From: Pigmentiphaga kullae
GTDB taxonomy: Bacteria; Pseudomonadota; Gammaproteobacteria; Burkholderiales; Burkholderiaceae_B
Assembly: GCF_004216695.1 (NCBI RefSeq)
Contig: NZ_SGXC01000003.1
Span: 558,001 to 622,000 of the forward strand
Direction: 5' to 3'
Length of the DNA: 64,000 bases
Below are positions 1,278 to 48,123 of this stretch, one piece after another. The position numbers and the translations under genes were made by a program. Each line of letters begins with the position of its first letter. Position 1 is the first letter of the stretch. The notes beneath the pieces are model-generated. The model searched no databases. It worked only from the letters and a program-made list of their open reading frames with translations, and was not told where the DNA came from.

Positions 1278-1357
1278 CCCCCCTACGCGCTTACGCGCGC
1301 CCCCCAGGGGGCGATGCGGGTGGACCGGCGGAGCCGGATCCACCGCATCCTGGGTCT
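1278..1357 (+). repeat. Palindromic intergenic repeat, copy 1
   Basis: About 80 bp beginning with a C-run and CTACGCGCTTACGCGCG, then a CCCCCAGGGGG hairpin, then an imperfect hairpin with GATGCGGGTGGACCGG on the left and CCGGATCCACCGCATC on the right, ending CCTGGGTCT. It starts about five bases after the TAG of the upstream receptor gene and is read in the same direction as that gene. Confidence 0.85.
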
Positions 1358-1399
1358 TGGGGGGGGGCGTCTTGGTTCGGAGCATCGGTTATTTGCCCT

Positions 1400-1479
1400 G
1401 ATCCAGGGCGCCGCGGATCCGGCTTTGCCGGTCCGCCAGCGCCGCCCCCTTGAGGGGGCCCGCGTAAGCGGGTAGGGGG
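1400..1479 (-). repeat. Palindromic intergenic repeat, copy 2 (inverted)
   Basis: Reverse complement of the same repeat: it reads GATCCAGGGCG first and finishes with GCGTAAGCGGGTAGGGGG. It forms an inverted pair with copy 1, with a 42-bp spacer. The CCCCC hairpin here is CCCCCTTGAGGGGG. Confidence 0.85.
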
Positions 1480-1638
1480 TGGGCTTCCCTTTCAGGGGTG
1501 GCACCGATGGATGAGGGGCGCGAGCGCCGGTATGCTCGGTTGGCGATCGCCGCCACGGGATCGGGGAGTGCGTAGGCACTGGGAACGAAAGAGCCGGGTA
1601 TGCGGGGAAGACCCGGGTTTTGACACGGAAGTCTGTCA

Positions 1639-2553
1639 ATGAATAGTTCGCTGTTTTTGTCGCAGTTGCTCAATGGTGTGCAGCTCGGCGTGCTGTTGTT
1701 CCTGCTGTCGTCAGGGTTGACCCTGATCTTCGGCATCATGAATTTCATCAATCTCGCGCACGGCTCGCTGTACATGGTCGGCGCGTTCATCGGGGCGGCC
1801 AGCTATAACGCGAGCGGGTCGTTCATCTTTGCCATCGCCGCGGCGATCATTGCCGCCGGGCTGGTGGGGCTGCTGCTGGAACATCTGGTCGCCCGGCCGC
1901 TGTACCGGCACGATCACCTGTACCAGGTGCTCGCGACCTTCGGCCTGATGATGTTCTTCAACGAACTGGCCATCGTCATCTTCGGCAACCGCCCTTACTA
2001 CGCGGCCATTCCGTCCGCGCTGGACGGCGCGGTGACGCTGTTCGGGTCGCAATATCCCCTCTACCGGATCCTGATCATCGCGGTCGGCGTGGCGGTTGCG
2101 CTGGGCGCCTGGTACCTGATCCAGAAGACGCGCTTCGGCATGCTGATCCGCGCCGGCGCCAGCAATTCGCCCATGGTCAGCGTGCTGGGCGTGAACATCG
2201 ACCTGCTCAAGAAGCTGCTGTTCATGCTCGGCGCCGGCCTGGCGGGCCTGGCGGGCGCGCTGGCGGGCCCCATCCTGTCGGTGCAGTCCGGCATGGGCGA
2301 GCCGGTCCTGATCCTGGCGCTGGTGGTCATCGTGGTGGGTGGCATCGGCTCCATCCGCGGCGCGCTGGTGGCGGCGATGATCATCGCCGTGATCGACACG
2401 CTGGGACGCGCCTACATCCCGCACATGCTCGGCTCGTTCATGCAGCCGGCCTCGGCCAATGCCGTCGGCCCGGCCATGGCCTCCATGCTGATCTATGTGC
2501 TGATGGCGCTGGTGCTGGCGTTCCGGCCCAACGGCATCTTGACTAAGAGGTAG
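1639..2553 (+). CDS. livH: Branched-chain amino acid ABC transporter permease LivH
   Basis: Integral membrane permease, 304 residues and about eight hydrophobic segments. The N-terminal segment LTLIFGIMNFINLAHGS is the LivH signature, and the C-terminus has the GGIGSIRGA cytoplasmic loop that contacts the ATPases. Length is normal for LivH. It forms the transmembrane heterodimer with LivM, encoded 122 bases downstream. The start at 1639 has only a weak ribosome site. A copy of the palindromic repeat begins within six bases of its TAG stop, between livH and livM. The substrate is probably an amino or aromatic acid. Confidence 0.92.
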   Translation: MNSSLFLSQLLNGVQLGVLLFLLSSGLTLIFGIMNFINLAHGSLYMVGAFIGAASYNASGSFIFAIAAAIIAAGLVGLLLEHLVARPLYRHDHLYQVLATFGLMMFFNELAIVIFGNRPYYAAIPSALDGAVTLFGSQYPLYRILIIAVGVAVALGAWYLIQKTRFGMLIRAGASNSPMVSVLGVNIDLLKKLLFMLGAGLAGLAGALAGPILSVQSGMGEPVLILALVVIVVGGIGSIRGALVAAMIIAVIDTLGRAYIPHMLGSFMQPASANAVGPAMASMLIYVLMALVLAFRPNGILTKR

Positions 2554-2558
2554 TGGTT

Positions 2559-2639
2559 CCCCCCCTACGCGCTTACGCGCGCCCCCCAGGGGGCGGCACT
2601 GGCGGACCGGCGGAGCCGGATCCGCGGCGTCCTGGATCT
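2559..2639 (+). repeat. Palindromic intergenic repeat, copy 3
   Basis: Single copy in the same orientation as the genes, running from the C-run at 2559 to CCTGGATCT. It has the same two hairpins, with the variant core GGCGGCACTGGCGGACCGG. It starts about five bases after the livH stop codon and lies inside the operon, so a role in mRNA 3'-end formation or differential expression of livH and livM is possible. Confidence 0.85.
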
Positions 2640-2675
2640 GGCAGCAGTAACTGATATTCCTGCAAGGTAGACGAT

Positions 2676-3686
2676 ATGAATCGCGTCAAATTCGGGGCCT
2701 GGATGATTCCGGTCCTGTTCATACTCCTGGCGGCCGTGCCGTTCGTCGCGCAGGCGATGGGTGAGCCGTTCTACGTGACGTTCTTCGCGCGCGTGCTGGT
2801 CTATGCGCTGGCCGCCTGCGCGCTGAACCTCGTGCTGGGCTTCGCCGGTCTGGTCAGCTTCGGCCATGCCATGTTCATCGGCCTGGGCTGCTATGCCGTG
2901 GGCATACTCAGCTACTACGGCATCAGCGACGGCTGGCTGCAGCTGCTGACGGCAGTGGCGGTGTGCGCGCTGGTGGGCCTGGTGGTCGGCACGGTATGCC
3001 TGCGTACCTCGGGCATCGGCTTCATCATGATCACGCTGGCCTTCGCCCAGATGTTCTACTTCCTGATGGTCAGCATGACCACCTTCGGCGGCGACGACGG
3101 CCTGAACATCAACGAGCCGAGCAACTTCGGACTGTTCGAGCTGTCGGGCAGCACCGAGGTCTACTGGGCGGCCTGGGCCGTGTTGCTGGCGGTCACGATA
3201 TTCCTGGCGCGGCTCAAGAAGTCGCCGTTCGGGATGGTGCTGCAGGCCACCCACATCAATCCGCGCCGCGTCAATGCGTTCGGCTACTCGGTCTTCCGCG
3301 TGCAACTGGCCGCCTACGTCATGTCCGGCGTATTGACCGGCCTGGCGGGCCTGCTGCTGGCCAACCTGACGGCCTTCGCCTCGCCCAGCTACATGTCGTG
3401 GCCGGTGTCGGGCGAGCTGATCGTCATGCTGGTCATCGGCGGCCTGGGCACGATCACCGGTCCCATCGTGGGCGCGATCGCCTTTCTCGTGATGGAAGAA
3501 TTCTTCAAGGGCCTGACCCAGCACTGGATGCTGATCATGGGGCCGGTCATCGTCGTGATCGCCCTGGTGAGCAAGAACGGCTTCGCATGGCTGATACGCC
3601 GGCGCGAAGAACCCGCCCCGGCGCCGTCCGCGGCGCCTGCCGCGGCACCCAAGGTTGCCGCCGCTTCCGCGGGAGAATCGCAATGA
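2676..3686 (+). CDS. livM: Branched-chain amino acid ABC transporter permease LivM
   Basis: Second permease subunit, 336 residues. The segment LNLVLGFAGLVSFGHAMFIGLG is at residues 50-70 and the GGLGTITGPIVGA coupling loop near residue 255, both characteristic of LivM. An Ala/Pro-rich cytoplasmic tail of roughly 30 residues (PAPAPSAAPAAAP) follows the last membrane segment and is not part of the core fold. An AAGGTA ribosome site precedes the ATG. Its TGA overlaps the livG ATG by four bases. Confidence 0.92.
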   Translation: MNRVKFGAWMIPVLFILLAAVPFVAQAMGEPFYVTFFARVLVYALAACALNLVLGFAGLVSFGHAMFIGLGCYAVGILSYYGISDGWLQLLTAVAVCALVGLVVGTVCLRTSGIGFIMITLAFAQMFYFLMVSMTTFGGDDGLNINEPSNFGLFELSGSTEVYWAAWAVLLAVTIFLARLKKSPFGMVLQATHINPRRVNAFGYSVFRVQLAAYVMSGVLTGLAGLLLANLTAFASPSYMSWPVSGELIVMLVIGGLGTITGPIVGAIAFLVMEEFFKGLTQHWMLIMGPVIVVIALVSKNGFAWLIRRREEPAPAPSAAPAAAPKVAAASAGESQ

Positions 3687-47443: not shown

Positions 47444-47763
47444 GGTTTTCCTTCTGGAGGTGTGCGCAAAGCGCAGGAAGAGGGTGCAGTGCGCGGTAAA
47501 CGGATATGTGATTCGTTAGATATATGCGGGCGCGTGTGCTTGGATTCCAGACCCCTGAGGGGAATTTTTTTATATGCGCGGATCCTGACGGGAGTACCCC
47601 TGGACGATGCGTGAGAAGCGCGAAACGCGAGGGGAGCGGGGCAGGTAGGCGCCGGAATCGGTCGGCGTAGAGCCCGAGATAAACCAATGGTAACCGCAAA
47701 AAAGCGGTTTTTCCAAGAGCCTGTCCGGCTAGTGTGGTTTTTAGAGCCCAGGACAAGGGAATT
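47444..47763. other. 320-bp gap between trxA and ffs
   Basis: Contains the trxA upstream region on the minus strand and a terminator-like element on the plus strand: CCCC (47552-47555), TGA, GGGG, then seven T (47565-47571). Near 47696-47711, ACCGCAAAAAAGCGGT can fold and may be a 3' element of ffs. No convincing gene. Confidence 0.5.
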
Positions 47764-47862
47764 GGGTGGCGAGCCTGACTTCGGCACTGACGGTTTACAG
47801 CTATGGCTGCTTCGTTCCCGACCTGACCAGGTTCACCGCTCCGCCATGCGAAGGGGCCCGCC
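47764..47862 (-). ncRNA. ffs: 4.5S signal recognition particle RNA
   Basis: On the minus strand the conserved domain IV core reads ACCTGGTCAGGTCGGGAA, then CGAAGCAGCC, matching the GGTCAGG/GGAA/AGCAGCC motifs that bind Ffh. The 5' end GGCGGGCC pairs with GGCTCGCC near the 3' end (all eight positions pair, one as G-U). A TATACT box lies six bases upstream of position 47862, which fixes the 5' end. About 99 nt. Confidence 0.94.
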
Positions 47863-47868
47863 AATGCC

Positions 47869-47874
47869 AGTATA
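47869..47874 (-). promoter_or_regulatory. -10 box of ffs
   Basis: TATACT on the minus strand, six bases before the start of the SRP RNA. The bases upstream are those of repeat copy 5 (CGCGCGTAAGCGCGTAGGGG on this strand), so the -35 region is supplied by the repeat; no TTGACA match is present there. Confidence 0.7.
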
Positions 47875-47877
47875 GCA

Positions 47878-47960
47878 CCCCCCCTACGCGCTTACGCGCG
47901 CCCCCCCAGGGGGGCGATGCGGGCGGACCGGCAAAGCCGGATCCACCGCATCCTGGGTCT
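47878..47960 (+). repeat. Palindromic intergenic repeat, copy 5 (left arm)
   Basis: Forward copy beginning with the C-run and CTACGCGCTTACGCGCG. It overlaps the ffs promoter region and ends CATCCTGGGTCT. It forms the left arm of the large inverted repeat with copy 6. Confidence 0.85.
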
Positions 47961-48043
47961 AGTGCGGTTTTCTTGGTTTGTGGCACCCGTGCTTCGCTGG
48001 CTGCCAGCGATAGCAACGGTGGCACAAACCAAGAAAACCGCAC

Positions 48044-48123
48044 TAGACCCAGGGCACCGCGGATCCGGCTTTGCCGGTCCGCCAGTGCCGCCCCCTGGGG
48101 GGCGCCCGAAGGGCGTAGGGGGG
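48044..48123 (-). repeat. Palindromic intergenic repeat, copy 6 (right arm)
   Basis: Inverted copy that ends 13 bases before the dnaX start. The usual GCGTAAGCG segment is replaced by CGCCCGAAGGGCG, so this copy has diverged at the proximal hairpin while keeping the GGATCCGGCTTTGCCGGTCC core. Confidence 0.8.

Follow-up and report, generated by a model that had tools for sequence, protein, structure and literature searches.

Why do copies of one hairpin-rich repeat sit directly behind the stop codons of several genes, all with the same end facing the gene? The question is raised by a 64,000-nt stretch of the Pigmentiphaga kullae genome (contig NZ_SGXC01000003.1, positions 558,001 to 622,000; the window hereafter), which holds six copies of such a repeat. 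The first-pass annotation proposed that these copies are an amplified 3′ mRNA element serving as a stabiliser, a processing signal or a termination signal. Its observation as a whole is partly confirmed here. We think it probable that the copies belong to a REP-like, more precisely BIME-like, family of mobile palindromes, that the family is docked on stop codons, and that transcribed copies tune the upstream gene and do not terminate its transcript. What is of interest is how closely the copies dock on true stop codons; the rest is mostly ordinary.

The six copies in the window lie within a base or two of the coordinates first given for them. They share a core hairpin, GGACCGGNNNNGCCGGATCC, which is exact in all six; a scan for it with up to three mismatches gave 12 matches, six of them exact, and none of 100 shuffles reached 12. 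The proximal motif described as common to all the copies, CTACGCGCTTACGCG, is exact in four and has one mismatch in a fifth, but the sixth (48044-48123) carries CTACGCCCTTCGGGCG in its place, a paired variant of the same hairpin. With up to two mismatches, CTACGCGCTTACGCG gave five matches against 0.33 ± 0.51 in shuffles. Across the genome analysed (6.22 Mb, five contigs) the core occurs exactly 202 times and the proximal motif 32 times, and the reversed-pattern control gave 0 for each. With the 80-nt copy 1 as a query, 230 candidates were obtained, of which 40 were scored, and the resulting list holds 45 matches. The top 40 share 95-100% identity with the query over 76-80 nt, and a copy identical over all 80 nt is present in contig C1. 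A GC-rich genome might be thought to yield such likeness by chance among its GC-rich hairpins. This explanation is refuted by the 202 exact cores against none reversed and by the identity of the best 40 matches, and its probability is practically negligible. The same figures bear out the proposed amplification of a REP-like family.

We read 106 oriented copies, namely those at the first 100 places among the 202 (the whole of contig C1, and C2 as far as position 570,992) and the six in the window. They comprise 73 copies of type A, 25 of type B and eight with an inserted module; one copy tallied as type A, L086(-), resembles type B. All but one of the cores, 105 of 106, lie outside called genes. 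The element is 79-86 nt long with a mean GC content of 77.9% (72.0-85.4). A type-A unit of about 80 nt starts with a C-run, continues through three hairpins and ends near CCTGG. Hairpin 1 is CGCGC-TTA-CGCGCG or a paired variant, hairpin 2 joins CCCCC to GGGGG, and hairpin 3 contains the core. The module is GC-rich, reads ...CCGCTACGCGGC...CGCCTTGGGGCGG...CCCGGCGCCGGG... and lies between hairpin 1 and the core.

The stems covary. In a structure alignment of 71 of the 73 type-A copies, retained by a length filter, 99.0% of stem cells are paired and 8 of 23 pairs have changes on both sides. None of the covariation measures was reached by any of 500 shuffles, and when the partners were slid by one to three columns 31-49% of cells were paired. 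Because copies were picked by their core, its invariance in this alignment is not evidence. Neighbouring copies tend to be inverted: among the first 100 places, neighbours less than 400 nt apart form 11 inverted pairs and one direct pair. Opposite-strand neighbours within this distance have their C-runs outward in 13 of 13 cases, their cores are 91-93, 136-137 or 157-158 nt apart in 12 of the 13, and the pairs often combine type A with subtype B. REP-like repeats in the broad sense are many intergenic palindromes with BIME-like inverted pairs, and both features are found here. Two other identities were considered and rejected. The core follows within 260 nt at all 30 of the proximal motifs examined (32 in the genome), so none of them resembles the end of a longer autonomous element. 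As for a known RNA family, lax matches of the repeat were to three microRNA models, far under their cut-offs, and at gathering scores Rfam found only signal recognition particle (SRP) RNA in the window.

How closely does the family follow stop codons? An upstream gene points at 54 of the 73 type-A copies. In 42 of the 73 the C-run starts 0-8 nt past a co-directional stop, 16 of them at 0 nt, against 2.9 expected for uniform placement within the same intergenic gaps with orientation free. The C-run start of L076(-) was set too far upstream and by eye lies 1 nt past TAG, which makes 43, not 42, at 0-8 nt. Four further genes were called as running into the C-run and ending at the TGA of hairpin 1; such a stop inside the element is supported at one (L078) by an empty site in a close relative, G406, and the other three depend on the gene caller. 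The caller may also have overlooked genes, perhaps one at coordinate 129973 of a 400-kb region, and the stop count would then be too low. Random distance and orientation, which would have spoken against the first-pass annotation, were not seen in the 106 copies. Its description of the copies as placed just after stop codons is right for three of the six in the window and for 42 of the 73 type-A copies (47 with stops that are inside the element or mis-set), but not for the rest. Type-B copies are at a stop in 5 of 25 cases and not at a called stop in 20. By the same measure 0 of the 8 module copies are, although the script did not locate their C-run and the module copy at rho does follow a stop.

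The stops themselves also differ in kind. The 47 stop-linked genes end in TAG 20 times, TGA 17 times and TAA 10 times, against 67, 173 and 54 among all called genes of the sample (Fisher p 0.001), a background for which the gene score was slightly stricter than for the element contexts. A 400-kb portion of G406 has 10 of its 18 type-A copies at stops, and the matching 400 kb of the genome under study has 12 of 18; these counts were made on 24 of 29 and 23 of 25 model hits, respectively, after a filter on score and start. The two counts are not independent because most sites are shared.

Part of this placement has a simpler source. In 62 of the 73 type-A copies the C-run is preceded at 0-8 nt by a stop triplet, against a background of 18.7%. 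In 42 of these 62 it is the true stop of a coding sequence, compared with 11.5% for points of this kind in intergenic DNA free of the element, so a preference for the triplet alone is insufficient for the bias to real stops. The last 10 nt before the C-run have a GC content of 43% at the ends of coding sequences and 37% at other copies; the controls are 63% in intergenic DNA and 58.5% behind the stops of element-free genes. Some of the placement can be put down to a preference of insertion for AT-rich sites. Two additive effects seem to be at work, namely a preference for AT-rich, C-poor flanks and an extra excess at true stops. In the sequences the C-run end stands with fixed polarity against a short AT-rich, C-poor stretch, which is most often a real stop codon.

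These flanks are also the basis of a purely selfish or neutral account, in which the repeats have no mRNA role. Insertion would favour short stretches rich in AT; where the genome is GC-rich, these are stop codons, −10 boxes and terminator T-runs. Copies inside genes would be purged. Such an account covers the AT-rich flanks of the non-stop copies (37% GC against 63%), and also the stop-like triplet found within 12 nt in 20 of the 26 type-A copies that have no called stop (background 17.6%). Several non-stop flanks are promoter-like or T-rich by eye, and just one of the 106 sampled cores is inside a called gene. It does not cover the excess of true stops among the 62 triplets or the pairing that is retained where stems differ between genomes. 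We regard it as possible but doubtful.

Copy numbers in related genomes bear on whether the family moves. Among 11 genomes of the genus, seven have 167-235 cores and four have 0-7. At least one core was found in 20 of 151 genomes drawn from the family (control: a single match, in one genome) and in 12 of 399 drawn from the order, some of these with a lone, possibly chance match. A genome of a sister genus (G098) has 126 cores, often in direct arrays of two to four units about 60-135 nt apart, along with single copies and few inverted pairs. The Rho scan of relatives covered at least 80 loci, and the best named of the matches listed is Bordetella ansorpii Rho, at 93% identity; we take the host to be Bordetella-like and to belong to the Alcaligenaceae. 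With one mismatch allowed, 13 of the 28 genomes reached via Rho loci have a match to the core, most of them near their controls; Variovorax sp. J22P240 stands out most clearly, having 43 matches (control 3). The repeat behind rho is present in all seven high-copy genomes of the genus and absent from the four low-copy ones, and its subtype at this site varies between genomes; the tail sequence was read in 7 of the 11 loci, and presence or absence at the remaining four was taken from BLAST. A stretch of a Methylibium plasmid (NC_008826.1, L275:2501-2558) matches 60 bases of the query, in the type-B part, with 88% identity and is covered by an annotated transposase gene.

Movement can be followed site by site against G406. 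In the compared 400 kb there are 23 element places in the genome under study and 21 in G406. Eighteen are shared (one in opposite orientation), three occur only in the former and three only in the latter; of the remaining two in the former, one is partly deleted in G406 and one is unmappable. At C1:1,973,433, a site filled only in our genome, the element supplies the gene's stop, and the empty G406 gene runs a few codons on to a TGA of its own. At 360873, a site filled only in G406, the picture is alike but with the roles of the genomes reversed. At a second G406-only site, 67592, our genome has a hairpin like hairpin 1, possibly a decayed copy. The copy at C1:1,690,599 has the module and its G406 orthologue lacks it. 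Behind a tuf-like gene, so named by eye, the copy at C1:1,631,957-1,632,035 (L236) has the opposite orientation in G406, and the gene ends differ. What the sequences themselves show is that the element is abundant in seven of the 11 genomes of the genus, and that sites occupied in one genome can be empty in a close relative.

Fifteen of the shared copies were compared, with a mean identity of 0.94 against 0.92 in their flanks. In five of them identity is no higher than 0.90; a flank aligns poorly in two of the five, and the other three have flanks at 0.94-1.00. At those three sites the two sides of the hairpin-3 stem differ jointly while the flanks are 94-100% identical. We infer that such joint changes would fit copy-to-copy exchange (gene conversion) or else replacement by a new insertion on the same spot.

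What would a copy do once it is transcribed? One proposal is a terminator or attenuator family that took over the original terminators of the preceding genes. At rho, the loci of three element-free genomes (L115, L116 and, in B. ansorpii, L133) show by eye a hairpin and T-run soon after the stop, where carriers have the element. Another element-free locus, L114, has no such T-run. The element has none of its own: no T-run follows the hairpins in any of the 71 aligned copies, and no terminator-like site was found in 1200-2750 or 47700-48200. Furthermore, a co-directional gene comes next after 36 of the 47 stop-linked copies and after 234 of 334 element-free genes, a similar rate which indicates that copies do not avoid such places. 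Downstream terminator-like sites were found at 7 of the 47 stop-linked copies (1/11 convergent, 6/36 tandem) and at 5/100 convergent and 14/234 tandem element-free genes, by a weak home-made detector with too few finds for the comparison to carry weight. Strong termination by the element is less likely on account of the missing T-run and the 36 co-directional neighbours, and the takeover of terminators is improbable.

A second proposal, the strong form of the original suggestion, is a 3′ mRNA stabiliser or processing signal that is positively selected at chosen genes. The fixed polarity and the 0-8 nt spacing at stops agree with it, as do the retention of the rho site in all seven high-copy genomes and the fold energies in the window, where five of six copies beat shuffles in RNA folding (z −2.2 to −3.4). 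Selection at chosen genes sits poorly with sites that vary between near relatives, with the varying subtypes at the rho site and with the 31 of 73 type-A copies whose C-run does not start within 0-8 nt of a stop. We consider it rather unlikely. What survives of the 3′ mRNA element is a non-random polarity and stop placement and covarying stems; the termination role finds no support, 26 of the 73 type-A copies are off called stops, and AT-rich flanks are found everywhere.

Our preferred reading, a mobile REP-like family docked on stops, can be stated as a series of steps. The family would spread through an activity in trans. No RAYT was found: the RAYT domain (Y1_Tnp, PF01797), at E ≤ 0.001, has a match in 0 of 7 high-copy genomes, whereas the same search was positive in 5 of 14 control genomes. 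In one low-copy genome (G408) a single PF01797 fragment covers 31 of 121 positions. Once transcribed, a copy would put a stable hairpin 0-8 nt downstream of the stop and behave like the stop-proximal REPs of Escherichia coli. The hairpin would slow ribosome release and 3′ exonucleases, and the upstream gene would be tuned in this way; we would expect the effect to be modest. Copies would exchange stems by gene conversion or replacement, and many may be neutral passengers.

Several observations weigh against this reading. The search for a mobilising enzyme found none, and inspection by eye of the six presence/absence cases revealed no clean target duplication. The copies are not uniformly near-identical, as the 23 copies (model hits) of one 400-kb region average only 0.83 identity. 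Twenty-six of the 73 type-A copies have no called stop at the C-run. Gene calls were made by a home-made open reading frame scorer, and the sample, contig C1 and part of C2, is no random draw. Covariation rests on hairpin 1 and the lower stem of hairpin 3, and is largely a matter of two subfamilies (29 GATGC/GCATC and 27 GGCAC/GTGCC of 71) with a few other paired combinations. The third copy in the window (2559-2639) folds no better than shuffles (z −0.34), and the RNA role is our inference.

A more specific proposal is that a REP-like family without RAYT docks on real stops to near single-nucleotide precision, that a TGA in the hairpin 1 loop sometimes supplies the stop where the phase of the C-run fits, and that exchange of whole stems keeps their pairing. 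We put this forward tentatively and hold it to be unlikely. If insertion itself is biased to true stops, its mechanism would be tied to translation or to mRNA 3′ ends, beyond DNA sequence alone. If the sampled share holds, about 100 genes per genome would have a standard hairpin directly behind the stop, and many transcripts could be tunable at once. Having spread in one group of genomes, with sites filled or empty among near relatives, the family lends itself to studying how REP-like repeats move without RAYT and why they gather at stop codons.

The window copies illustrate these arrangements. Copy 1 (type A, 1278-1357, plus strand; core hairpin 1322-1341; RNA fold z −2.98) has its C-run 5 nt past the TAG (1270-1272) of a binding-protein gene. 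Its inverted partner, copy 2 (type B, 1400-1479, minus strand; core 1415-1434; z −3.33), has a CCCTCAAGGG hairpin and the outer end GGGAAGCCCACCCCC, and the two cores are 93 nt apart. Copy 3 (type A, 2559-2639, plus strand; core 2604-2623) has its C-run 5 nt past the TAG (2551-2553) of the permease gene livH. A promoter-like site (1620-1647; TTGACA, 16 nt, AATAGT) lies between the first element pair and livH, so livK and livH are not necessarily a single transcript. Copy 4 (45509-45662, minus strand; core 45521-45540; z −2.64 over 160 nt) carries, between hairpin 1 and the core, an extra module some 75 nt long, and its C-run is 2 nt past the rho TAG (45665-45667, minus strand). The three genes had been named as a LivK-type receptor, livH and rho, and Pfam agrees (periplasmic binding protein, branched-chain amino acid permease and Rho). 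All three do end in TAG as described, but the gaps of 5, 5 and 2 nt do not all fall in the 4-9 nt range that had been given.

The other copies, 1400-1479, 47878-47960 and 48044-48123, are not behind stops. Copies 5 and 6 form an inverted pair between the SRP RNA gene and dnaX. Copy 5 (type A, 47878-47960, plus strand; core 47925-47944; z −3.37) is upstream of the SRP RNA gene (47862-47765, minus strand), and copy 6 (type A, 48044-48123, minus strand; core 48061-48080; z −2.17) is upstream of dnaX (48137-50149, plus strand), which Pfam also identifies as DnaX. With their spacer the two make up a 248-nt near-palindrome (47876-48123) with 97-nt arms that are 84% complementary and a DNA fold of −134.6 kcal/mol (z −21.4). 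By eye, a −10-box-like TATACT adjoins copy 5 on the SRP RNA side and TACAAT adjoins copy 6 on the dnaX side; a promoter scan gave no site at either flank. The SRP RNA gene is of the bacterial small type (Rfam RF00169, 75.8 bits), and the palindromic pair fills its upstream region.

How does the element compare with known repeats? Like REP/BIME of E. coli and the GTAG REPs, it consists of imperfect palindromes, forms inverted pairs and lies a short distance from stops, as those families are described in the portions of the literature available to us (PMC3733652, PMC12306157). In many cases a GTAG REP supplies the TAG with which the flanking gene ends, according to one partially available account (PMC3733652), and E. 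coli REPs less than 16 nt from a stop are described, in the available part of a report citing earlier work, as downregulating translation and stalling ribosomes (PMC12306157). Unlike GTAG REPs, the element is about 80 nt long with three hairpins and a C-run, and it has neither a 5′ GTAG nor, in the seven high-copy genomes, PF01797. The 5′ GTAG tag was not found in REP polarity; a CTAC borders hairpin 1, with CTACG close to the start of 63 of the 71 copies aligned, and on the opposite strand GTAG comes after the hairpin and not before it. A RAYT-driven REP or REPIN was rejected on the missing PF01797 match in those seven genomes and the wrong tag polarity.

The Bordetella repeats are closer at hand. 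A text search of the literature gave no match to the element's motif strings, and stop-codon statistics, stop supply and stem exchange are absent from the Bor and BRE accounts in the portions available, with no dedicated literature search per claim. BRE repeats are given, in the available part of their description, as 75-91 nt long, mostly intergenic, found in Bordetella and Comamonadaceae in direct tandem, numbering 8-22 per Bordetella genome and with a mean GC content of 69.0% (63.7-78.9) (PMC3110155). Compared by description, the element is similar in length (79-86 against 75-91 nt) and likewise mostly intergenic. It differs from BRE so described in its 202 cores, its GC content of 77.9% and its inverted neighbours (11 of 12), with direct tandem the exception in its own genome; direct arrays of the core do occur in the sister-genus genome G098.

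The nearest likeness is to Bor/Bor-1, an intergenic stem-loop family of Bordetellae that is called REP-like and lies near coding regions, as far as its available descriptions go (PMC1590033, PMC2267715). The same partial sources give a 117-nt model with 196 matches (92 full) in B. bronchiseptica and a 93-nt model with 128 matches (78 full) in B. pertussis (PMC1590033, PMC2267715), and Bordetella repeats have been placed among REP-like families without a terminal tag, in the part of that account at hand (PMC3733652). The element differs from Bor as described in docking precisely on stop codons, which does not appear in the available parts of the Bor accounts (PMC1590033, PMC2267715). Like Bor/Bor-1, it is intergenic, structured and present in the order of 100-200 copies, a comparison by description. 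On that descriptive footing, the element and Bor-1 are probably the same family or sister families.

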